Assembly (NCBI RefSeq): GCF_013177675.1
Contig: NZ_CP042652.1
Span: 2,294,001-2,358,000, forward strand
Reading direction: 5' to 3'
From: Arcobacter acticola
Lineage (GTDB): Bacteria; Campylobacterota; Campylobacteria; Campylobacterales; Arcobacteraceae
DNA: 64,000 nt
This document shows positions 9,757-20,869 of this stretch, piece after piece. The notes beneath the pieces were generated by a model that was not told the origin of the DNA, did not search any database, and worked only from the letters and a program-made list of their open reading frames with translations. How positions within the stretch are numbered: the first letter of the stretch is position 1; the number at the start of each line of letters is the position of its first letter. The position numbers and the translations under genes are program-made.

Positions 9757-9976
9757 TTTTTTCTCTTTCTTCCTGTTCTATATCCATAAATTTCATTAAT
9801 AAATATTTAATTGGAGCATAAAATGTTGTCATTGAAACTATTGTAATTATTAATTGAGCTATTTTAAATAAAGAACTATTCTCCCCCAAAATAAATAACA
9901 CTAAATAGTAACTAATAAGCATAGAGATTATAGCACAAATTACAATACTTATTATTACAATAATATTATAATTCAT
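9749..9976 (-). CDS. Small membrane protein, two transmembrane segments
   Basis: 75 residues from the ATG at 9976, which follows GGAG by six bases; the longer in-frame reading from 10000 lacks this. Two hydrophobic segments (IIVIISIVICAIISMLISYYLVLFIL and FKIAQLIITIVSMTTFYA, quoted only in part of their extent) are followed by a charged tail, MDIEQEEREKND. No family recognised. It overlaps the 3' end of bpt by 11 bases and the exported-protein gene by 8, so it is translationally coupled to both. Confidence 0.62.
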   Translation of the reverse strand: MNYNIIVIISIVICAIISMLISYYLVLFILGENSSLFKIAQLIITIVSMTTFYAPIKYLLMKFMDIEQEEREKND

Positions 9977-10703
9977 TTTTTCTCCATATAGGTCTTTCAT
10001 CCAAATAAGCCCTATTCTCTAAAACTTCAAAAGGTTCATATGCTTTTTTATATCCCATTGAAAAATGGTCTTTTATCCAATATCCCAAATAAATATAAGG
10101 AATATTAAGCTCTTTTGCAATTTTTATTTGTGCTAAAATAGAAAATTTTCCTATTGATAAATCTGCATAATCATGATCATAATAACAATAAATCGAAGAT
10201 ATTGACTTATCTAAAATATCAACTAAGGCAACACCAATTAATTTATCATCTCGTACATATAAAAATTCTTTTGCGAAATTTTCTTTTCCTTCAACATAAG
10301 ATTTTATGTAATCATTTGGATCAATAGGACTATAAGGCCAATCTTTTTTATCATTCATAAATTTATGATACTTATCATAAAGACTTAGATGTTCCATAGT
10401 CAAAGATGGTGGTCTTATATAAAGTTTAGTTTCTTTATTTTTAGCAATTACTCTTTTTTCTGATCTAGAAAATTTATAGTTAGCAACATCAATTCTTATA
10501 GAAACACATTTTGTACAAGATTTACATTCTGGTACAAAATGCATCTTACCAAATCTTCTCCACCCTCTTTCTAACATACCTTGGTATTGAATTGAAGAGC
10601 AAGAATGAATATATTTGTATCTAATATCAGATATTTTTTCATCAAAATAAGAGCATGTTCTATTCTCTTCTAAGAATTCAATATCTGGACTTTGAGTAAA
10701 CAT
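9966..10703 (-). CDS. bpt: Aspartate/glutamate leucyltransferase (arginyltransferase-like)
   Basis: 245 residues. Transfers leucine from Leu-tRNA to proteins with N-terminal Asp or Glu, marking them for degradation in the N-end rule pathway. The N-terminal ATE domain has CSYFDEKISDIRY and FVPECKSCTKCVSIRI, whose cysteines are typical; the C-terminal domain has SIYCYYDHDY and IYLGYWIKDHFSMGYK. It lies two bases after trpA and is followed by two coupled envelope genes. Family assignment is firm; the acceptor and donor specificity follow from the bacterial subfamily. Confidence 0.88.
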   Translation of the reverse strand: MFTQSPDIEFLEENRTCSYFDEKISDIRYKYIHSCSSIQYQGMLERGWRRFGKMHFVPECKSCTKCVSIRIDVANYKFSRSEKRVIAKNKETKLYIRPPSLTMEHLSLYDKYHKFMNDKKDWPYSPIDPNDYIKSYVEGKENFAKEFLYVRDDKLIGVALVDILDKSISSIYCYYDHDYADLSIGKFSILAQIKIAKELNIPYIYLGYWIKDHFSMGYKKAYEPFEVLENRAYLDERPIWRKNEL

Positions 10704-10705
10704 AA

Positions 10706-11446
10706 TTATTCGTTTATTTTTTCTTTTATCTCTTTTGCAATAGCACTAATTTTCTTAATTTTTTCATCGTTTGATAAACTATCATCAAGTATGTGTTTTA
10801 CAAAAGCACTTCCAACTATAACTCCATCAACCCCAACAATTTTCTCTTTACAAGTCTTTTCATCAACACCAAAACCAATATATAAAGGTGTATCTGAATA
10901 TTTTCTTACATTATTAATAATTGAAGTTAAATCCTCTTTTTGACCACTTCCTGTGATTCCAGCATAAGCAACCATATAAATAAATTTTTTAGCATCTGCT
11001 ACTATTAATTTTATTCTTTCTTCACTATCTGTTGGTGCTACAAATGAAATATTTGCTTTATTGTATTTATCAAATAAGCCTTGGAAATTTTGAGCCATTT
11101 CATAAGGAAGATCAGGAATAATTGTTCCTTGAATATTATATTCTTGAGCATTTTGTAAAAATTTTTCCATACCATAATGATAAAACGGATTTAAATAACC
11201 CATCCATAAAGTATCAATATCTTTTGCAATTTTTGAAGATACTTCAAATAAATCTTTTAATTTAAAACCATTATTTAAAGCAATTAAATTTGCTTTTTCA
11301 ATAATTGGACCATCTGCTACAGGATCAGAGAAAGGTATTCCTAACTCCAGTGTATCAACACCTGCATCTTTCATACTATATGCTAAATCAATTGTAAAAT
11401 TGTTATTTGGAAGCGACGACGTAATATAACCTACTAATTTTTTCAA
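10706..11446 (-). CDS. trpA: Tryptophan synthase alpha chain
   Basis: 246 residues, a TIM barrel that cleaves indole-3-glycerol phosphate to indole and glyceraldehyde 3-phosphate and passes indole to TrpB. Catalytic Glu34 and Asp45 are in LELGIPFSDPVADGP, and phosphate-binding loops are YAGITGSG and IGFGV. trpB and the other trp genes are not in this window, so the pathway is scattered or lies elsewhere. It is followed two bases later by bpt. Confidence 0.93.
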   Translation of the reverse strand: MKKLVGYITSSLPNNNFTIDLAYSMKDAGVDTLELGIPFSDPVADGPIIEKANLIALNNGFKLKDLFEVSSKIAKDIDTLWMGYLNPFYHYGMEKFLQNAQEYNIQGTIIPDLPYEMAQNFQGLFDKYNKANISFVAPTDSEERIKLIVADAKKFIYMVAYAGITGSGQKEDLTSIINNVRKYSDTPLYIGFGVDEKTCKEKIVGVDGVIVGSAFVKHILDDSLSNDEKIKKISAIAKEIKEKINE

Positions 11447-11508: not shown

Positions 11509-12924
11509 TTATTCTTTTTTATCTTCTGTATTTTCTTTAGTATCTTTTTTACTTCTTTTTAAAAGTACATTAATAATATTTTGAATATTAATAAAAAATC
11601 TTGTTGTATATGAAGTTTGGCTATTTATAATTTCTTGCCCTAGTTTTATATCTATCGCTTCTGATTTTTTCATTGATAAAAGCTGAGAAGGAAATACACT
11701 TCTATGTCCTGTCATTAAAAAAGCAATAATAATTGAAATAGCAGCATAATGCCCAACATCCATCCCAAAAAGCTCAACTGCCATTATCATAGCAGCAATT
11801 GGGGCACTTGTTGTTCCTGCTAAAACACTTACAAAGCCAAGTGCTGCAAATAATGGAATATATCCATCTACTAAATATCCAAAGAAATTTCCACTTGTTG
11901 CACCAACATAAAATATGGGCGTGATAACTCCACCACTTCCACCAAAAGCCAAGGTTATAGAAGTGAAAATAGTTTTCATAATAAAAGCATACCAAGGTAC
12001 ATTTTCATAGGCTTCAATGTTATAGGATAAGGAGTCTTTTATTGTATGAAAACCAAGTCCTAGATAATCTTCTCCAATAATTAAAGTTAAAATTACAAGA
12101 AGCATTCCTCCAAAAAAAGCTTTTAAAATATAATTAATTTTTATCTTATCAACATATTTATGTAAAGTACTCAAGGTAGTGATAATAAAATCTGCAACTA
12201 GTCCAAAAAATATTCCACCTAAAATAATTTTTGATAATAAAACATAATTAAAATCAAAACTTGAATAAAAAGCAATATAAAAATATGTATAATTAATACC
12301 AAGCATCTTTGCTACTAAAAATGCAGAAAAACCAGCCACAATTGAAGGTAATAAAATATCATACATTAAAGCACCAACAATTAATATCTCAACTCCAAAA
12401 ATAGCACCTGCAAGTGGAGTTCCAAATACAGAAGCAAATCCTGCACTAATTCCACAAATTACAATTTTTTTTCTATCTCTATTTGAAAAATTTAGTTTCA
12501 TTGCAATAAAAGAAGCTAATGATGCTCCAATTTGAGCACCAGGACCTTCTTTACCAACAGAACCACCTGCAAAAATAGTAAGTACCGTTGCAAAAAGTTT
12601 TGTAGGAACAACACTAATATTTATTTTTCCAGAATTTTTATGAACAGCTTCAATTACTTTTTCTGTTCCATGACCTTGGGCACTTGGAGCAAATTTTTTC
12701 ACAATAAAAACCGTTATTGCTAAAGCAAAAGGCAAAGTATAGTAATAATTAAAAGGTAATAATTCCCTAGAATTTTCACAATATTCTAAAAGTTTTAGAA
12801 ATAAAGAAACAACTGCACCAATCAAGGCACCAATTAAAGATGATAAGATTATCCATTTTGAGATACTGGCAAATAAAATAGTTTGTTCGGCTAAGTGTTT
12901 TGGGATATTTAAGTCATTTTTCAT
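11509..12924 (-). CDS. ClC-family chloride channel or Cl-/H+ antiporter
   Basis: 471 residues, polytopic inner-membrane protein. Selectivity motifs of the ClC family are visible: the first helix end FAPSAQGHGTEKV, the gate motif GGSVGKEGPGAQIGA with gating Glu126, and GSGGVITPIF. The retained gate glutamate favours an antiporter over a pure channel, which is an inference. A hydrophilic Lys/Glu-rich tail of about 40 residues replaces CBS domains. It lies 62 bases before trpA on the same strand. Roles in this family include acid resistance and ion balance. Confidence 0.88.
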   Translation of the reverse strand: MKNDLNIPKHLAEQTILFASISKWIILSSLIGALIGAVVSLFLKLLEYCENSRELLPFNYYYTLPFALAITVFIVKKFAPSAQGHGTEKVIEAVHKNSGKINISVVPTKLFATVLTIFAGGSVGKEGPGAQIGASLASFIAMKLNFSNRDRKKIVICGISAGFASVFGTPLAGAIFGVEILIVGALMYDILLPSIVAGFSAFLVAKMLGINYTYFYIAFYSSFDFNYVLLSKIILGGIFFGLVADFIITTLSTLHKYVDKIKINYILKAFFGGMLLVILTLIIGEDYLGLGFHTIKDSLSYNIEAYENVPWYAFIMKTIFTSITLAFGGSGGVITPIFYVGATSGNFFGYLVDGYIPLFAALGFVSVLAGTTSAPIAAMIMAVELFGMDVGHYAAISIIIAFLMTGHRSVFPSQLLSMKKSEAIDIKLGQEIINSQTSYTTRFFINIQNIINVLLKRSKKDTKENTEDKKE

Positions 12925-13042
12925 AAGAAAGCTTTATATTTATTTTAAATTTATATTTAGTATTTAATTTTAACTAAAGACTTATTTACTTGTACTTTAA
13001 AATAGTTCTTTTTATACTAAATATTCAAATTCTAATTTTTAA

Positions 13043-13070
13043 TAGGCTAAGATAATCAAACCTCAGCCTA
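13043..13070. terminator. Hairpin downstream of galU
   Basis: TAGGCTAAG and CTCAGCCTA pair with one mismatch around a ten-base loop. It lies 16 bases after galU; T-rich sequence is stronger on the plus-strand side, so function as the operon terminator is tentative. Confidence 0.4.
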
Positions 13071-13085
13071 AATTTTTTTATTAAA

Positions 13086-13922
13086 CTATTTTTTTGCTTT
13101 TTTTTCTAAATCATAAAAGTAATTTGTGGCTTCTACAAAACCATCAACACTTCCACAGTCAAATCTCTTACCTTTAAATTTATAAGCTAATACCATGCCA
13201 CTTTTAGCTTGGGTACATAAAGCATCTGTTATTTGAAGTTCACCGTTTTTACCAGGTTTAGTTTTAGATATTACTTCAAAAATACTTGGCGTTAAAATAT
13301 ATCTTCCAATAACAGCTAAATTTGAAGGAGCTTTATCATTATTAGGTTTTTCAACCATATTTGATACCATAAAAACTCCATCTTCAATTTTACTTCCTTC
13401 AATAACACCATACTTATGAACATCCTCTTTTGGAACTTCCATACAAGCTACTATACAACATTTATATTTCTCATATAATTTTATCATTTGAGTTAAAACA
13501 CCATCACCTTTTGGATTAACACATAAATCATCTGCAAGAATTACAGCAAATGGATCCGTTTCACCCACTAACATTCTTCCTTTATATATTGCATCACCTA
13601 GACCTTTCATCTCATTTTGTCTAGTATAAGTAAATGTACATTTTTCAATAATTTTTCTAATGTCATTTAACATCTCTTCTTTAGATGAACCTTTTATTTG
13701 ATGTTCTAACTCATATGATATATCAAAGTGATCTGTTATGGCTCTTTTACCTCTTCCTGTAATAATAGACATAACATCACATCCACCTGCAATAGCTTCT
13801 TCAACTCCATACTGAATCAACGGCTTTGTAAGTACCGGTAACATCTCTTTTGGCATTGCCTTTGTTGCTGGTAAAAATCTTGTACCATAACCTGCTGCTG
13901 GGAATAAACATTTCTTAATCAT
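13086..13922 (-). CDS. galU: UTP--glucose-1-phosphate uridylyltransferase
   Basis: 278 residues, makes UDP-glucose. The nucleotide-binding signature AAGYGTRFLPATKAMPKEML (7-26) and the later VEKPNNDKAP and LQITDA motifs identify GalU. It is the last gene of the glucosylglycerate operon, 30 bases after the GH13 gene. In this context it would recharge the glucose-1-phosphate released by phosphorolysis into UDP-glucose for the synthase two genes upstream, besides serving LOS synthesis. Confidence 0.94.
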   Translation of the reverse strand: MIKKCLFPAAGYGTRFLPATKAMPKEMLPVLTKPLIQYGVEEAIAGGCDVMSIITGRGKRAITDHFDISYELEHQIKGSSKEEMLNDIRKIIEKCTFTYTRQNEMKGLGDAIYKGRMLVGETDPFAVILADDLCVNPKGDGVLTQMIKLYEKYKCCIVACMEVPKEDVHKYGVIEGSKIEDGVFMVSNMVEKPNNDKAPSNLAVIGRYILTPSIFEVISKTKPGKNGELQITDALCTQAKSGMVLAYKFKGKRFDCGSVDGFVEATNYFYDLEKKAKK

Positions 13923-13952
13923 TCTTTCTCCTTTATTTGTTTAATTATTTAT

Positions 13953-15692
13953 TTAAATTGTTCCTTTTAACCACATAATTTGATATGGTGCGAGTTTAAA
14001 TTCTCTTTTTTGCTCATTTTCTTCTTGTGATAAAACTCCATAATTTGTAGATAAAATATCATACAAAGGAAGTTTTATATTTTTAGGAAGGATACAAATT
14101 ACTTCCTCATTTGAAAAATTATGAATAGCTATAATTCTTTCAACACCTTTAGCACATACATTATCTATGGCAAATATTTTTTCACCCATATCTAGAAAAT
14201 TAAATTTTCCAAAAGGGTTAAAAGCTTCTTCATTTATTCTTATGGATATTAATCTTTTATAACTATCAAAAACACTTTTTGCCAAGCTTCCTTGTTTTGA
14301 TAATTCATTTTCTAACCAATCAATATGATATTTTTCACGATTTATAGTTCTATTTACACCTGTATGCTTCACACCATCTCGATAATTTCTAGACCCAACT
14401 AATGAATGAAAATAAATACCTGGAACTCCTGGCATTGCCAAAACTGTAGCTTGAGTTACTAATAATCTTTTTAATCTAATTGCATCATCTTCATTTGGAT
14501 TAGTAAGAGCATCTATGTAAGAACAATTTAGCTCATAAGGAGTTTTTGTTCCATCTTCTTCTGCTCTAAAAGATACTAATCCACCATGCTCTTGTACTTT
14601 TTGTACAATAAAATCAACTTCTTCATCTTTTAAAATATCTTTTACAGGTCTAAGGCCTATACCATCATGACTAGCCGTAAAATTAAAGAAACATACCTTA
14701 TCACTTGGAAGTGTTAAAGTCTTTGCCCAAGAATTTAAAGTTTTTGTATTTCCATTTAAAATAGAATGAACTAAAAGTGGAGGAAGAGCAAAGTTATAAA
14801 CCATTTGCGCTTCATCATCACCACTTCCGAAGTATGATACATTTTCATGGTGTGGTACGTTTGTTTCTGTGATTATTATAACTTCAGGTGCAACCTCATG
14901 TAAAACATCTCGCATTAGCTGTATTAACTCATGGGTTTGAGGAAGGTGAACACATTGTGTTCCTATTTCTTTCCAAATAAAAGCAATGGCATCAAGTCTT
15001 ATTAGTGTTGCACCTTTTTCTATATAATAAAAAAGTGCATCTAGAACATTTCGTAAAACCCTATGACTTTTGTAATTTAAATCAACCTGATCCTTACTAA
15101 AAGTAGTCCAAATATTATGAATTTTTCCATCATCATCTACAAATTCACTTAACAGTGGACTAGCCCTTGGACGTACAACTTTACTTAAATCAATAGATGG
15201 ATCCAAATCAATAAAAAAGTCTTGAAAATAAGGGTCTCCACTTAAATATGCTCTAAACCAATCTGAAAATTGAGAAATATGATTTATAACACCATCTACC
15301 ATAAGTCTATAATTTTTACTTATCTCTTCAATTTCTCGCCAAGATCCCATATGAGGATCAACAGCACTATAATTTACAACTGAAAAACCATCATCTGAAG
15401 AATAAGGATAAAAAGGAAGAATATGAACTGAATTAATTACACCTTTTAAATGATTATCCATAAAATCATTTAATGTTTTAAGTGAAGCTTCATGATTTTT
15501 ACTTACTTGGTCTCCATAAGTTATCAATACTATATCTTTTTGACTTAAGTGATATTCTTGGGATTTGATTCTTTGTTTGTATTTAAAGATTAAGTCTATA
15601 ATATCATTGATAGCAAGTTCAGCAATAGAAGGTGGATAGAGTTTGTTTAGTCTTTTATTTATTTTATGATTGGGGCTTGATATATGTTTCAT
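13953..15692 (-). CDS. GH13_18 glycoside phosphorylase, probable glucosylglycerate phosphorylase
   Basis: 579 residues, sucrose-phosphorylase type of glycoside hydrolase family 13. Conserved regions: DGVINH (133-138), nucleophile Asp234 in IRLDAIAFIW, acid/base Glu276 in IITETNVPHH, and the His342-Asp343 pair in NFTASHDGIG. Related enzymes phosphorolyse sucrose, glucosylglycerol or glucosylglycerate. Here the gene overlaps a glucosylglycerate-synthase gene by 4 bases and shares an operon with glycerate kinase, so the predicted reaction is glucosylglycerate plus phosphate to glucose-1-phosphate plus glycerate. Sucrose phosphorylase is the main alternative, but no sucrose gene is nearby. Cytoplasmic; no signal peptide. 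Confidence 0.85.
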   Translation of the reverse strand: MKHISSPNHKINKRLNKLYPPSIAELAINDIIDLIFKYKQRIKSQEYHLSQKDIVLITYGDQVSKNHEASLKTLNDFMDNHLKGVINSVHILPFYPYSSDDGFSVVNYSAVDPHMGSWREIEEISKNYRLMVDGVINHISQFSDWFRAYLSGDPYFQDFFIDLDPSIDLSKVVRPRASPLLSEFVDDDGKIHNIWTTFSKDQVDLNYKSHRVLRNVLDALFYYIEKGATLIRLDAIAFIWKEIGTQCVHLPQTHELIQLMRDVLHEVAPEVIIITETNVPHHENVSYFGSGDDEAQMVYNFALPPLLVHSILNGNTKTLNSWAKTLTLPSDKVCFFNFTASHDGIGLRPVKDILKDEEVDFIVQKVQEHGGLVSFRAEEDGTKTPYELNCSYIDALTNPNEDDAIRLKRLLVTQATVLAMPGVPGIYFHSLVGSRNYRDGVKHTGVNRTINREKYHIDWLENELSKQGSLAKSVFDSYKRLISIRINEEAFNPFGKFNFLDMGEKIFAIDNVCAKGVERIIAIHNFSNEEVICILPKNIKLPLYDILSTNYGVLSQEENEQKREFKLAPYQIMWLKGTI

Positions 15693-16900
15693 TGGTTATC
15701 CTCACTGACGTATTTTGCGAACTTATCTGAAAACTCAGGTAAAACAGAACGAACTGTAATCCAAGGAGATAATGCTGGAATTCCCATAGGATCTTCGTAA
15801 TACTCTTTTGAAGCTTCTTTTATGGCTTTTTCAAACTCCATTACTGCTTGTATTTCTTTTTCTCTTATGTACTCTAAGTTATTTAATTTACTTAAAGCAT
15901 TGTATTTTGATATTTCAAATCTTGCTTCTTGGAAATAAGTTGCTAATAATGTTTTAAAAGATGCTTCACTAAAAACAACTCCTTCTTGAGCCATAACTCT
16001 AAAAAGTGTTTTAGCTATATCATTGGCCATTTTATATATTCCACCGCCACTATCAGAATTTCCTAATTCTTGATGTTTATGTTCATAACTTTCCATAATT
16101 TCAGTTTGACATATTCTTCTATTTGAAGTATTTTTATAGACCTCACTTAAAGTTGAAACTTCTAATCCCCAAGTGGGGGAAATAGCAATACCTCTTCCTA
16201 AACTTCTTATAAAAGAGAATTCACCCGATAAGGCATATCTAAAACTTTCCATATAATCTAAATATCTACTAGAACCATAAACCTTTGTAAGTGAATTTAT
16301 TAAAGGTGTGTATAAAAGCCTTGTAGCTCTTCCATGTAGTTTATTTGTTACCCTTGAATAAAATCCTTTATTAAATTCAAAATCAAGTCCAGGATGAATA
16401 ATAGGATAAAAAAGTCGTGCAGGAATTTCTCTATTATAATTTACAATATCACAGTCATGAAGTGCAAAAGCATAAGCATCTTTATCTGTTAATCCATAAC
16501 CAATCATTGTCCAAACATTTCTTCCTTTTCCAGGAGTATTAAGTCCGGGAAAACCTTCATTTGTCAAATCTTTATATAATTCTTGAATTTTAGGTCCATC
16601 ATTCCATAACACATCAACCCTACAAGGTAAAACTGACATTAGTTGCTTAACTTCTTCAAACTGCTCTTTTGTTGCCTTATCTAAACCTAATATAATTTTA
16701 TATAAATATTTTACACCCTTTAATTCTTCAATAATTTTATGCATCGCAGGAGTTTGGAACTCTGAATATAATGCAGGTAAAAGAAGAACCATTTGATGTC
16801 TTTTACCAAATTCTTCAAGTTCACTTTCCATATGTTCTATACTTCTATTTCCAAGATCTTGTAAAGTTGTTATAACTCCATTTTGAAAAAAATCAGCCAT
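15689..16900 (-). CDS. gpgS: Glucosyl-3-phosphoglycerate synthase (GT81)
   Basis: 403 residues. Transfers glucose from a nucleotide-glucose to 3-phosphoglycerate, the first committed step to glucosylglycerate. Family motifs seen: NDGPKIQELYKDL (100-112), GKGRNVWTMIGYGL (124-137), the metal-binding ALHDCDIVNY with Asp149 and Asp151, the SFRYALSGEF segment near 219-228, WGLEV (244-248) and YEHKHQ (272-277) with the C-terminal metal-ligand His. It overlaps its neighbours by 4 and 8 bases, giving translational coupling. Glucosylglycerate is a compatible solute in salt-stressed, nitrogen-limited marine bacteria. A mannosyl-donor variant is possible, but the phosphorylase and GalU in the operon favour glucose. 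Confidence 0.88.
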   Translation of the reverse strand: MADFFQNGVITTLQDLGNRSIEHMESELEEFGKRHQMVLLLPALYSEFQTPAMHKIIEELKGVKYLYKIILGLDKATKEQFEEVKQLMSVLPCRVDVLWNDGPKIQELYKDLTNEGFPGLNTPGKGRNVWTMIGYGLTDKDAYAFALHDCDIVNYNREIPARLFYPIIHPGLDFEFNKGFYSRVTNKLHGRATRLLYTPLINSLTKVYGSSRYLDYMESFRYALSGEFSFIRSLGRGIAISPTWGLEVSTLSEVYKNTSNRRICQTEIMESYEHKHQELGNSDSGGGIYKMANDIAKTLFRVMAQEGVVFSEASFKTLLATYFQEARFEISKYNALSKLNNLEYIREKEIQAVMEFEKAIKEASKEYYEDPMGIPALSPWITVRSVLPEFSDKFAKYVSEDNQ

Positions 16901-18056
16901 TGTTTTTCTCCTTTAAAACTATTATAAAATCCATTACATTTGTACCCGTAATTCCAGTTACAAAATCATATGAAAGCTTATTAAAAAATGTATTACTATC
17001 ACAATTTTTTAAATACTCATTTGCATTAAGATTTAATTTTTTTATTTTTTCAGAAATCTCAAAATCAACAAAAGCTCCATTTGCATCACTATTTCCATCA
17101 ATTCCATCACTTCCTGAACATAAAATAGAAATATTTTTATTAAATTTATTATCAATTAACAATCGTAAAGCCAATTCTTGATTTCGTCCACCTTTTCCAT
17201 TTGCTTCAACTATAGTTGTAGTTTCACCACCAAATAATAAACAAAAACTTTCATATTTTTTATCATATTCTTTAATTATATTTGATATGTAAGAACTAGC
17301 TTCTATAGAGTTTTTATCAAGGGAAGTAGTTATAATTTTTGTCTTATCTACTTTTTTATCTATATATTTTTTGGCTTTCTTTAAAGCTATTTTATTATTT
17401 CCTATAATGTAGTGTTTGAATTTTCCATTATTCATAGGAGCAGAGCCAATTGTATTTAAGTCATCTCCAATAACATCACTTAAAACTAAAACAGAACCTT
17501 GAGCTTTAATACTATTAGCTAGTTTTCCGCCTTTTATTTGTGAAATAGATTTTCTTACACTATTTAAAGCTTTAATATCTATACCACTTGATAATAGTGC
17601 TTTTGATATTTTTGAAAAGTCATCTAAATTTAATCCATCAATTGGTTTTTCAATCATTGCAGAAGCACCACCTGAAAGCAAAAATATAAAATAATCATCT
17701 TCTTGCAAATTAGATACTTCATCAAGTAATAAAGTTCCAGCTTTTATACTTTTTTTAGAAACTAAAGGATGACTTGACTTAAAATGTTTTATGTATTTTA
17801 ATTTTCCTTTTGATGTAGAAATTGCTAAACCACCTTTTATTTTATCTTCTAAAATTTTTTCACACTCTTTAGCCATTGAAAAACCAGCTTTTCCAACAGA
17901 GAATATATATAATTTTTTGATTTTATTTAAATCTATTTTCTCATCTACTATATTTAAGATATTCTCTTTAATAGATACATTATCTTTAATAATTGTTTTT
18001 GCTTTTACCTTATTCAAGGCTTTAAAATATATTTTTTCTAATTCTTTTCTAGACAT
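16893..18056 (-). CDS. gckA: Glycerate 2-kinase (MOFRL/GckA family)
   Basis: 387 residues. Phosphorylates D-glycerate to 2-phosphoglycerate. Seen: FSVGKAGFSMAKECE near the N-terminus, the phosphate loop LLSGGASAMIEKP, and the MOFRL-domain motifs FGGETTTIVEANGKGGRNQE and CSGSDGIDGNSDANG. It overlaps gpgP upstream and gpgS downstream by 8 bases each. In this operon it would capture the glycerate released by glucosylglycerate phosphorolysis and return it to glycolysis. Hydroxypyruvate-pathway glycerate is the usual substrate source elsewhere; no such genes are nearby. Confidence 0.88.
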   Translation of the reverse strand: MSRKELEKIYFKALNKVKAKTIIKDNVSIKENILNIVDEKIDLNKIKKLYIFSVGKAGFSMAKECEKILEDKIKGGLAISTSKGKLKYIKHFKSSHPLVSKKSIKAGTLLLDEVSNLQEDDYFIFLLSGGASAMIEKPIDGLNLDDFSKISKALLSSGIDIKALNSVRKSISQIKGGKLANSIKAQGSVLVLSDVIGDDLNTIGSAPMNNGKFKHYIIGNNKIALKKAKKYIDKKVDKTKIITTSLDKNSIEASSYISNIIKEYDKKYESFCLLFGGETTTIVEANGKGGRNQELALRLLIDNKFNKNISILCSGSDGIDGNSDANGAFVDFEISEKIKKLNLNANEYLKNCDSNTFFNKLSYDFVTGITGTNVMDFIIVLKEKNNG

Positions 18057-18843
18057 TTTTTAACACCATTTCGCTCCAACCTGTAGAGCCTTTGTAAGTT
18101 GATTTTTGAATATTTTTAATTTTACAGTTTATATATCCACCTTTGTGGTTTTTAATTATAATTGGAACATCCACATTTTCAAGCATAGCAATATCATTTT
18201 GTCCATCACCTAAGGCAATTGTTTTAGTTTTTGTATTAAATACCTTTTCAAATATTTTTACTGTTTCACTAACTGCTCTTCCTTTATCTTGATTAATTCC
18301 AATTAAATGATAAAATCTTCCACCTTTAGTAATTTTTATTCCATATTCGAAAGCAATTTTTTCTAAAGCTTTTAATTTAGATTCATCCTTTAAAATAAAT
18401 GGCTCTGTGAAATCTCTTTGTTTTGCTAAATCTGCAATAGTAGAGTCTAATTTTGTGTATTTCATTAGCTCCCATTTATTCATATCCGAGAAACCTAAAA
18501 TCTCAAATTCTTCTTTATATTTATTATAAAATTCTAAAATTTTCTCATAGGATAATCCCAATTGATAAATATAATAATTTTCATACTCATCTAAAAATGA
18601 AAAGTCCAATTCTTTATAATTTTTTGGAATAAATAATGCAGCACCATTTTCTATAATAAATGGCTCATTGATTTTCAACCTTTCATGTAAGGTCTCAACC
18701 TCGACTTTTGTTTTACTTGTAGTAAATATTAAAGGTATATTTTCACTTAAAACTTTTCTAACTCCAAGAAGGGAATCATTATAAGAATAGTCATCATGAT
18801 TTAAAAATGTACCATCTAAATCTGTAAATATTATGATTTTCAT
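18049..18843 (-). CDS. gpgP: Glucosyl/mannosyl-3-phosphoglycerate phosphatase (HAD-IIB)
   Basis: 264 residues from ATG 18843; an in-frame ATG at 18858 would add five residues, and neither has a strong ribosome site. HAD motif I is FTDLDGTFL (Asp8 nucleophile, Asp10), motif II the FTTSKTKVEVETL segment typical of the mannosylphosphoglycerate-phosphatase family, and motif IV LGDGQNDIAML. It would remove phosphate from glucosyl-3-phosphoglycerate made by the coupled synthase. It is the first gene of the five-gene operon and overlaps glycerate kinase by 8 bases. The operon promoter should lie in 18844-18991, shared divergently with panB. Confidence 0.85.
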   Translation of the reverse strand: MKIIIFTDLDGTFLNHDDYSYNDSLLGVRKVLSENIPLIFTTSKTKVEVETLHERLKINEPFIIENGAALFIPKNYKELDFSFLDEYENYYIYQLGLSYEKILEFYNKYKEEFEILGFSDMNKWELMKYTKLDSTIADLAKQRDFTEPFILKDESKLKALEKIAFEYGIKITKGGRFYHLIGINQDKGRAVSETVKIFEKVFNTKTKTIALGDGQNDIAMLENVDVPIIIKNHKGGYINCKIKNIQKSTYKGSTGWSEMVLKNV

Positions 18844-18991
18844 AATTAATAATAGCATTTAATAACCAAAATTAAAAGTTATCCTTGTATAAAGAATATA
18901 CAGTAGCAAAATGCGCACTTATGTTATTTTATTTATTAAAAAGATTTTTGTGATAGAATATCTATCTAGATAAAGTACAGGAAATTATATT

Positions 18992-19801
18992 ATGAGCATA
19001 ATTACAAACGATTTTGAGAAAATGAATATTACAAAAATCAAAAATTCAAAAAATAATAAAAAATTAACAATGATTACAGCATACGATGCACTATTTTCAA
19101 AGCTTTTTGCAGAAATTGCAGATATGATTTTAGTGGGTGATAGTTTAAATATGAGCTTTGCAGGGAAAGCAGATACGCTTTCAGCAACACTAGAACAAAT
19201 GATATATCACACAAATGCAGTATGTGCAGGAGCACCAAAAGCTTTTGTTATTTTAGATATGCCATTTGGAACATACATAAATAAAAATGAAGCCCTAAAA
19301 AATGCAGTTGAAGTTTATAGACAAACAAAAGCAGCAGCCATTAAAATAGAAGGCGGAGCAGATAGAGCTGATATTATAGAACACTTAACATCAAACTCAA
19401 TTGCTGTTATGGGACACATTGGTCTTATGCCACAATATGTGAGAAGTGAAGGTGGATATAAAGTAAGAGGAAAAAATAAAGAAGATGAAGAACAGTTAAT
19501 AAAAGATGCCATTGCAGTTGAAAAAGCAGGAGCATTTGCTATTGTTGTAGAAGGTGTAATGAGTGATGTTGCAAAAAAAATCACTGAAGCTGTAAATGTG
19601 CCTATTATTGGAATTGGAGCAGGAAATGTAACTGATGGTCAAGTTTTAGTTTGGTCAGATATGTTAGGTTTCTTTGAAGATTTCAAACCAAAATTTGTAA
19701 GACATTATATGCAAGGAGCTTCAATGGTTAAAGAAGCAATAAACCAATATAGAAGTGATGTTCAAGATAGTTCATTTCCTTCAAAAGAAGAAGAATATTA
19801 A
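18992..19801 (+). CDS. panB: 3-Methyl-2-oxobutanoate hydroxymethyltransferase
   Basis: 269 residues, first committed step to pantothenate. Metal and substrate motifs: TMITAYDALFSKLF, VGDSLNMSFAGK (metal-binding Asp), LDMPFGTY, IKIEGG, GHIGLMPQ and IGIGAG. Length is normal. It is divergent from the glucosylglycerate operon and 30 bases before ruvB on the same strand. panC and panD are not in the window. A short palindrome TATCTAGATA lies about 20 bases before its start. Confidence 0.94.
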   Translation: MSIITNDFEKMNITKIKNSKNNKKLTMITAYDALFSKLFAEIADMILVGDSLNMSFAGKADTLSATLEQMIYHTNAVCAGAPKAFVILDMPFGTYINKNEALKNAVEVYRQTKAAAIKIEGGADRADIIEHLTSNSIAVMGHIGLMPQYVRSEGGYKVRGKNKEDEEQLIKDAIAVEKAGAFAIVVEGVMSDVAKKITEAVNVPIIGIGAGNVTDGQVLVWSDMLGFFEDFKPKFVRHYMQGASMVKEAINQYRSDVQDSSFPSKEEEY

Positions 19802-19831
19802 CATGGCAAAATTTAAAGGATTACTTTAAAA

Positions 19832-20869
19832 ATGGAAAGAATAGTAGAAGTTGAGTCAGTATCTTTTGAAGAAGATAATGCAGAAGTAAGCTTACGTCCT
19901 TCAAATTGGGACGATTATATAGGTCAAGAAAAAATCAAAAAAAATTTAAAAGTATTTATTGAAGCCTCTAAAAAAAGAAAAGAAGCATTAGATCATATAC
20001 TTTTTTATGGACCGCCAGGACTTGGGAAAACAACTTTGTCATATCTTATTTCAAATGAAATGAATACAAATATTAAAGTAACAGCTGGGCCTATGATTGA
20101 AAAATCAGGTGATTTAGCAGCAATATTAACAAACCTTGAAGAAGGAGATATTTTATTTATAGATGAAATTCATAGACTTTCACCAACTGTTGAAGAGATA
20201 CTTTATCCTGCAATGGAAGATTATAGATTAGATATTATAATTGGTTCAGGACCAGCTGCACAAACTGTAAAAATTGATTTGCCAAGATTTACTTTAATTG
20301 GAGCTACAACAAGAGCTGGAATGTTATCAAATCCTTTAAGAGAAAGATTTGGTATGCATTTTAGAATGCAATTTTATAATCACGATGAGTTATCAAAAAT
20401 TGTTAGAAAAGCAGCAGATAAACTTTCAAAATCATGTGAGAATGATGCAGCGTTTGAAATTTCAAGAAGAAGTAGAGGAACTCCAAGGGTAGCACTTCGA
20501 CTTTTAAAAAGAGTAAGAGACTTTGCAGAAGTTGAAAATGAAGATTTTATTCATATTTCAAGATGTAAATATGCCTTAGATGAATTAGGAGTAAATGAAA
20601 GTGGCTTTGATGAAATGGATATAAATCTTCTTGAACTATTAATTTCAAATCGAGGAAAACCAATGGGACTTTCTACAATGGCTGCTGCTCTTAGTGAAGA
20701 TGAAGGAACAATTGAAGATGCTATTGAGCCTTATTTACTTGCAAATGGATATATAGAAAGAACTGCACGTGGAAGAGTAGCTTCATTAAAAACTTATGAA
20801 ATGTTTAGACTTTCATATCCAGGAAGTGAAAAATTAGATGATAATGTAAACCAAGGAAAATTATTTTGA
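19832..20869 (+). CDS. ruvB: Holliday junction helicase subunit RuvB
   Basis: 345 residues, hexameric AAA+ motor for branch migration with RuvA. Walker [10 protein letters not shown] (60-68), Walker [12 protein letters not shown], sensor 1 GATTRAG, arginine finger in NPLRERFG, and the C-terminal winged helix ending around [11 protein letters not shown]-like sequence (YIERTARGR). It overlaps the permease gene by 4 bases. ruvA and ruvC are elsewhere. Confidence 0.96.

Follow-up and report, generated by a model that had tools for sequence, protein, structure and literature searches.

Operon layout and predicted enzymes

The window analyzed here is a 64,000-nucleotide stretch of the Arcobacter acticola genome (contig NZ_CP042652.1, positions 2,294,001 to 2,358,000), and our subject is a minus-strand run of five genes within it (18843 to 13086), predicted to make and recycle the osmolyte 2-O-glucosylglycerate, together with a palindrome upstream of the first gene. 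The run consists of a phosphatase, a glycerate kinase, a synthase, a GH13_18 phosphorylase and galU; a check of the open reading frames (ORFs) returned the same gene order as the original prediction, with the same overlaps of 8, 8 and 4 bases between neighbors and the same 30-base gap before galU. All gene functions given below are predictions from sequence. The features are as follows.

18049..18843 (longest ORF from 18858), minus strand: predicted gpgP-type HAD-IIB phosphatase (TIGR01486 over cut-off)
16893..18056, minus strand: predicted glycerate kinase, DUF4147/MOFRL, glycerate 2-kinase type (PF13660 and PF05161 over cut-off)
15689..16900, minus strand: putative glucosyl-3-phosphoglycerate synthase, GpgS type (NF040724, E 7.9e-94, under the equivalog cut-off)
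13953..15692, minus strand: predicted GH13_18 glucosylglycerate phosphorylase (TETN at 275-278, Glu387, identity to YcjM)
13086..13922, minus strand: predicted galU, second genomic copy (TIGR01099 over cut-off)
18886..18902, no strand: candidate palindromic operator TGTATA-N5-TATACA, 42 bp 5' of the ATG at 18843

We infer that the five genes form a single transcript. No terminator-like site was found between them on the minus strand, a weak negative given that the scan did not rise above shuffled sequence (2 versus 1.6); a sigma-70 scan gave no clear excess of sites (33 versus 39.7 for shuffles), and no Rfam family reached its gathering threshold in window positions 12000-20000. For the phosphatase, the start at 18843, that of the original prediction, is better than the one at 18858, because it sets the palindrome 42 bases from the gene, a spacing also seen in four relatives (27 bases from 18858).

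The five enzyme assignments of the original prediction are supported by family profiles, with the synthase the least certain of the five. The phosphatase scores 193.9 bits with TIGR01486 (HAD-IIB MPGP family; cut-off 164.75), and the models for single activities remain under their cut-offs, with scores that do not tell glucose from mannose; its three best solved relatives carry the name mannosyl-3-phosphoglycerate phosphatase. The kinase matches DUF4147 (PF13660, 191.3 bits) and MOFRL (PF05161, 114.3 bits), both above cut-off, and its solved relative is 2b8n, a putative glycerate kinase. Its expected product is 2-phosphoglycerate, going by the names of the models NF040791 and NF041176, both matched under their equivalog cut-offs. 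GalU scores 390.5 bits with TIGR01099 (cut-off 326.8); the other copy, 75% identical, lies at G000:C1:1057446 next to a pgi-like gene.

For the GH13 enzyme (PF00128 over cut-off), the active site argues for the earlier assignment. Glucosylglycerate phosphorylase (GGaP; EC 2.4.1.352) is marked by (T/S)ETN at strand beta5 and by a Glu that replaces Gln in loop A, according to excerpts of a 2020 review by Franceus and Desmet (PMC7178133), the loop A rule being given likewise in part of PMC6720575. The window enzyme has TETN at 275-278 and Glu387, and both marks occur in 66 of 66 aligned proteins, Escherichia coli YcjM among them, to which the window enzyme is identical in 237 of 568 alignment columns (42%). 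In five solved relatives displayed in the alignment the loop A position is Gln, not Glu. This evidence supports glucosylglycerate as the predicted substrate, and neither sucrose nor glucosylglycerol.

A palindrome shared with nitrogen genes

Alignment of the regions upstream of related operons contained, by eye, a single conserved block, TGTATA-N5-TATACA. The copy at 18886-18902 is the only match in the window at up to one mismatch and is not significant alone (a mean of 0.52 is expected by chance, and 37 of 100 shuffled sequences also yield one); the significance of the palindrome comes instead from its conservation across related promoters. Of 72 operon promoters, 12 carry it exactly and 8 more with one mismatch (20 of 72), as compared with means of 0.015 exact and 0.315 at up to one mismatch over 200 rounds of shuffling (maxima 1 and 3). 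The 93 loci collected (1.65 Mb) contain 12 exact sites, all of them at an operon promoter, 41-44 bases 5' of the start codon in 8 loci and 42 in the window; the predicted start differs in the other 3. At one of the promoters with an exact copy (L115/L040, from G386, a metagenome-assembled genome [MAG]) the phosphatase gene is present as two ORFs.

Across the 3 Mb of the window's genome there are seven exact palindromes, as against none for a reversed-pattern control, and these precede three amtB-glnK pairs, glnA, gltB, a porin gene and the glucosylglycerate operon, so that five of the seven stand before three ammonium transporters, glutamine synthetase and glutamate synthase. The gltB site is shared with a divergent gene read as TRAP-type, and the porin site with a divergent one read as prs. 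At the level of sequence, therefore, one candidate operator is common to the operon and to ammonium and glutamine/glutamate genes. The original prediction saw salt, phosphate or the regulation of the enzymes as the necessary means of control; the palindrome points instead to a transcriptional signal.

The pattern extends to 18 further genomes of the family, which hold 118 exact palindromes versus 21 for the reversed pattern; two genomes from other families had no exact copy. In a subset of 85 sites from 18 genomes, with the operon's own sites excluded, 49 adjoin genes classed as nitrogen genes, two of them solely via the promoter of the candidate regulator described below; this count is descriptive and not a test, as several query genes were chosen from among the site neighbors. 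Among representatives of these neighbors, glnA, gltB, nirB, urtA and one of three amt proteins exceeded curated cut-offs, and nirC and eutB exceeded Pfam cut-offs. The nifA representative fell just under its cut-off (517.2 versus 528.85), and that of glnQ was also under its own; nasA and nrtA are names by reading, their best models being formate dehydrogenase alpha and the SsuA family, both under cut-off. In genome G070 (L293, L295, L297, L289, L302) the palindrome stands before nirB, a formate/nitrite transporter, urtA, eutB, a nifA-like gene and an amino-acid-type ABC ATPase, which is a broad nitrogen-scavenging set.

The palindrome is presumably bound by a nitrogen regulator. A candidate of 249-250 amino acids is encoded near amtB genes in six genomes, including the window's (C1:361065-361814, approximately 6 kb from the first amtB), as found by a tblastn search that covered the collected loci. 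It has a weak AAA domain of the sigma-54 activator type (PF14532, 30.1 bits; cut-off 25), a sub-threshold helix-turn-helix match and no match to an NCBIfam model. The copy in the window's genome is NtrC-like, without a receiver domain or GAFTGA, and a one-mismatch palindrome lies 83 bases upstream of its gene. That this protein is the palindrome's regulator is a guess.

Distribution and linkage to Entner-Doudoroff genes

Among 398 genomes of the order, drawn evenly from a larger group, GpgS was found in 46 and the GH13 enzyme in 45 (GH13 search at E 1e-60); within the window's genus the operon is present in 1 of 18 genomes, the window's own. The order phosphatase-kinase-synthase-GH13, mostly with galU, repeats in Arcobacteraceae and in Sulfurovum- and Sulfurimonas-type loci, and it is found without galU in Flavobacteria (Wenyingzhuangia, Flavicella, Ochrovirga). 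This recurrence is beyond chance. On a tree of 93 synthases, a quick one whose stars are less sure and whose named loci are the best 80 kept of 248, 7 Bacteroidota and 4 Psychrobacter rows fall within a 43-row set that is otherwise Campylobacterota, bar one unplaced MAG, a placement that implies transfer between phyla. The kinase slot holds one of two distant types (27 and 48 of the 93 loci; none seen in 18). A tree of 70 kinases separates the two types by a single split, whereas on the synthase tree they require at least four changes; the operon is therefore a mosaic.

Individual loci depart from the common layout. L038 (G252) has no visible glycerate kinase, its phosphatase being separated from the synthase by a 47-base gap, and keeps the phosphorylase, galU and Entner-Doudoroff genes. 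In most loci of family f7 (L052-L071) a glucose-6-phosphate-isomerase-like gene lies directly 5' of the phosphatase. In L074 (G329) gpgS is broken into two frames and no GH13 gene was found, so that the cluster looks decayed.

Genes of the Entner-Doudoroff pathway were labeled by BLAST to locus proteins, with curated models run on representatives. The gene edd, accompanied in most cases by zwf, pgl and eda, is found on the same strand downstream of the operon in 12 of the 93 loci and upstream in 6 more; it is not present in 44 loci with sufficient flank, the remaining 31 being outside the judged set, and it is absent nearby from 32 of the 50 judged loci that bear GH13. The downstream run is typically zwf-pgl-edd-eda, beginning 1 to 100 bases past galU (past GH13 in L035). 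Three of the loci with edd upstream (L133-L135) have an opposite-strand pgm gene between edd and the operon, so there is no shared transcript there. In G290 the operon has the same neighbors as in the window (panB-ruvB, trpA), with Entner-Doudoroff genes in place of galU and the ClC gene that lies downstream of it in the window.

Nine sampled Arcobacteraceae genomes have both synthase and zwf. Six of these are linked directly and G225 by an inferred contig join at galU, and in each of these seven only one zwf was found. Four linked genomes (G070, G252, G290, G386) gave no match to glucokinase, ROK kinase, mannitol dehydrogenase or phosphotransferase system (PTS) EIIC, and here the glucose of the osmolyte may feed the pathway; the other three (G225, G356, G374) have a glucokinase. 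The two unlinked genomes are the window's and G314, which are also the only 2 of 11 searched genomes with mannitol dehydrogenase, Entner-Doudoroff genes lying beside it. The window's genome has no such genes beside the operon and two sets elsewhere. One (L103, G000:C1:1872000-1891900) follows a sugar ABC transporter, a mannitol-type dehydrogenase and a PfkB kinase (best match fructokinase); in the other (L104, G000:C1:268000-287900, at 9770-11035) a zwf without its first approximately 50 residues is followed by pgl-edd-eda, pgi, aldehyde dehydrogenase and pyruvate kinase. The link is no rule, because G338 has zwf-pgl-edd-eda but not the operon, nor the two kinase types, mannitol dehydrogenase or PTS, and in G380, which has the operon, zwf is missing.

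Proposed function, alternatives and related systems

We consider it probable that the operon makes, holds and recovers 2-O-glucosylglycerate and belongs to a nitrogen-limitation regulon, the latter because its palindrome is common to the amtB, glnA and gltB promoters. GalU would supply UDP-glucose, the synthase would couple glucose to 3-phosphoglycerate, and the phosphatase would free glucosylglycerate, an anionic osmolyte; since this contains no nitrogen, control by nitrogen limitation fits. Once the solute was no longer needed, the phosphorylase would use phosphate to release glucose-1-phosphate and glycerate, and the kinase would turn glycerate back into 2-phosphoglycerate. Glucose-1-phosphate could be re-activated by GalU or pass into hexose-phosphate metabolism via phosphoglucomutase. 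The expected sign of control is induction when nitrogen is short: glucosylglycerate would take the place of glutamate, and its glucose and glycerate would be recovered afterwards. The closed cycle of the original prediction is thus chemically plausible as a recycling loop, with the amendment that a kinase of the 2-kinase type would close it through 2-phosphoglycerate; the loop would therefore require a phosphoglycerate mutase, which is present in the window's genome. The small net cost claimed for it also needs correction: by our stoichiometry a full turn would use some two nucleoside triphosphates, one ATP for the kinase and one UTP for GalU, making the cycle futile if unregulated.

The titles of cited works tie glucosylglycerate to salinity and nitrogen starvation in cyanobacteria and Mycobacterium smegmatis. 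The solute typically accumulates under high salinity and nitrogen starvation, according to the abstract of a review (PMC11009771), and the consulted parts of the 2020 review state that the exact metabolic function of the phosphorylase lacks experimental confirmation (PMC7178133). The shared operator and, in relatives, the linkage to the only zwf found suggest two testable roles, nitrogen-sparing osmoprotection and glucose recovery. If the proposal is true, nitrogen control in Arcobacteraceae would have an operator and a candidate for its regulator; by title, we found neither for this group in the open-licence literature. The operon might also explain the Entner-Doudoroff pathway of Arcobacter anaerophilus IR-1, which, in the text available, does not use glucose and encodes no hexokinase yet encodes this pathway (PMC4584990).

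Several observations weigh against regulated glucosylglycerate metabolism of this kind. For the synthase, the match to NF040724 (GpgS; E 7.9e-94) shows kinship with GpgS, and the predicted activity is less certain, the 314.7 bits falling short of the equivalog cut-off of 700 (PRK13915 gives 41.1 bits versus 262). In favor of the assignment, its residues H148-D-C-D151 are unchanged in 16 sequences. The protein has no Pfam match and no sequence match among solved structures, and its predicted model is poor (mean predicted local distance difference test score 65.8); the leading matches of this low-confidence model are mycobacterial GpgS, weakly (E 1.7e-3 or worse, template modeling score approximately 0.2-0.5). 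The palindrome, at up to one mismatch, is missing from 52 of the 72 operon promoters, among them those of all 7 Flavobacteria, 4 Psychrobacter, most Sulfurimonas-type and f7-type loci and also three Arcobacteraceae-type loci (L120, L042 [2 mismatches] and L132 [4]); nitrogen control is thus not a general feature of such operons. Furthermore, the family genome G027 is without any exact copy, 36 of the 85 sites are unassigned to nitrogen genes and the regulator's identity is uncertain.

These gaps bear on the view that the operon is a plain salt-response cassette, nitrogen being irrelevant and the palindrome a generic promoter element or the site of an unrelated regulator. The many operons without a palindrome agree with it, as does the restriction to a single genome of the window's genus, and several named carriers are marine by title, the only indication of habitat used (two Modern_marine biofilm MAGs, Poseidonibacter ostreae). 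We nevertheless consider it unlikely, because an element with seven copies in 3 Mb, five before ammonium and glutamine/glutamate genes, is no general promoter element. A role in storage besides osmoprotection, with glucosylglycerate as a carbon store whose glucose is burnt through the Entner-Doudoroff pathway once nitrogen returns, is compatible with nitrogen-controlled osmolyte metabolism and a serious possibility, if one we would not yet favor: the 18 linked loci, the one zwf per linked genome and the four linked genomes without Glk and its alternatives speak for it, whereas the separate Entner-Doudoroff genes of the window's genome, the glucokinases of three linked genomes, G338, the intervening pgm of L133-L135 and the GH13-bearing loci with no edd nearby speak against it. 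Operation of the phosphorylase in reverse, by which it would itself make the solute from glucose-1-phosphate and glycerate alongside the synthase, has in its favor that GGaP reactions are reversible, with a D-glycerate KM of 1-5 mM (from part of PMC11009771); it is improbable, as the glycerate kinase of the same operon would drain the acceptor and, from general knowledge, cell phosphate favors phosphorolysis. Least likely by far is a GH13 enzyme that acts as sucrose phosphorylase or glucosylglycerol phosphorylase and is merely located here. Sucrose phosphorylase is both its best NCBIfam model and the name of its best solved relative, but the score with that model (TIGR03852) is 239.9 bits, under the cut-off of 334.4, and the 42% identity to YcjM and the two active-site marks, one of them replaced by Gln in the five solved relatives, point elsewhere; on these marks we rejected the identities sucrose, sucrose-6-phosphate and glucosylglycerol phosphorylase.

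Taken further than nitrogen-controlled osmolyte metabolism, the data would fit a bolder proposal, which we advance tentatively and with rather less than even confidence: an as yet undescribed nitrogen-limitation regulon of Arcobacteraceae, with TGTATA-N5-TATACA as its operator and perhaps run by the NtrC-like protein, would recruit osmolyte synthesis in a switch from glutamate to glucosylglycerate, and in sister species an Entner-Doudoroff pathway without a sugar kinase would be fed mainly by the glucose of the solute. We found no description of the palindrome or of the operon's linkage to Entner-Doudoroff genes in the open-licence literature, judged mostly by title, which is no proof of novelty.

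The cluster type itself is already known. GGaP genes are often accompanied by genes for glycerate kinase, synthase or phosphatase, and neighborhoods of this kind, in Meiothermus silvanus, Spirochaeta thermophila and others, were the source from which GGaP specificity was deduced (PMC7178133, in the descriptions available). In the window operon all four genes stand tightly together, with a dedicated galU and the palindrome of the nitrogen genes, which may set it apart from the clusters described. In Synechococcus sp. PCC 7002 synthase, phosphorylase and phosphatase have consecutive tags, as here (A2021-A2023: GPGS, GGAP, GPGP), and, unlike here, the three tags named in the accessible part of PMC10873239 include no kinase or galU. 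Escherichia coli YcjM, a characterized GGaP with the same active-site marks, is encoded among genes for a sugar ABC transporter and kojibiose phosphorylase, with no synthase in the stretch displayed, unlike the window. Persephonella-type loci of the Aquificota encode a GpgS 58-63% identical to the window's and, in most, a kinase of the second type; they differ in an extra glycosyltransferase between kinase and synthase and have no GGaP within the available flanks. In L173 and L175-L179 (Aquificota) the gene in this place encodes approximately 415 amino acids, and the L173 copy, which was scanned, is a mannosylglycerate-synthase-like glycosyltransferase.

Downstream of galU, on the same strand, the window contains a gene for a ClC-type chloride channel (11509-12924). 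We rejected it as a sixth member of the operon, as it is 161 bases off and no gene of the other compared loci grouped with it; distant ClC homologues lie near gpgS in L185 (43% identity) and L172 (28%).

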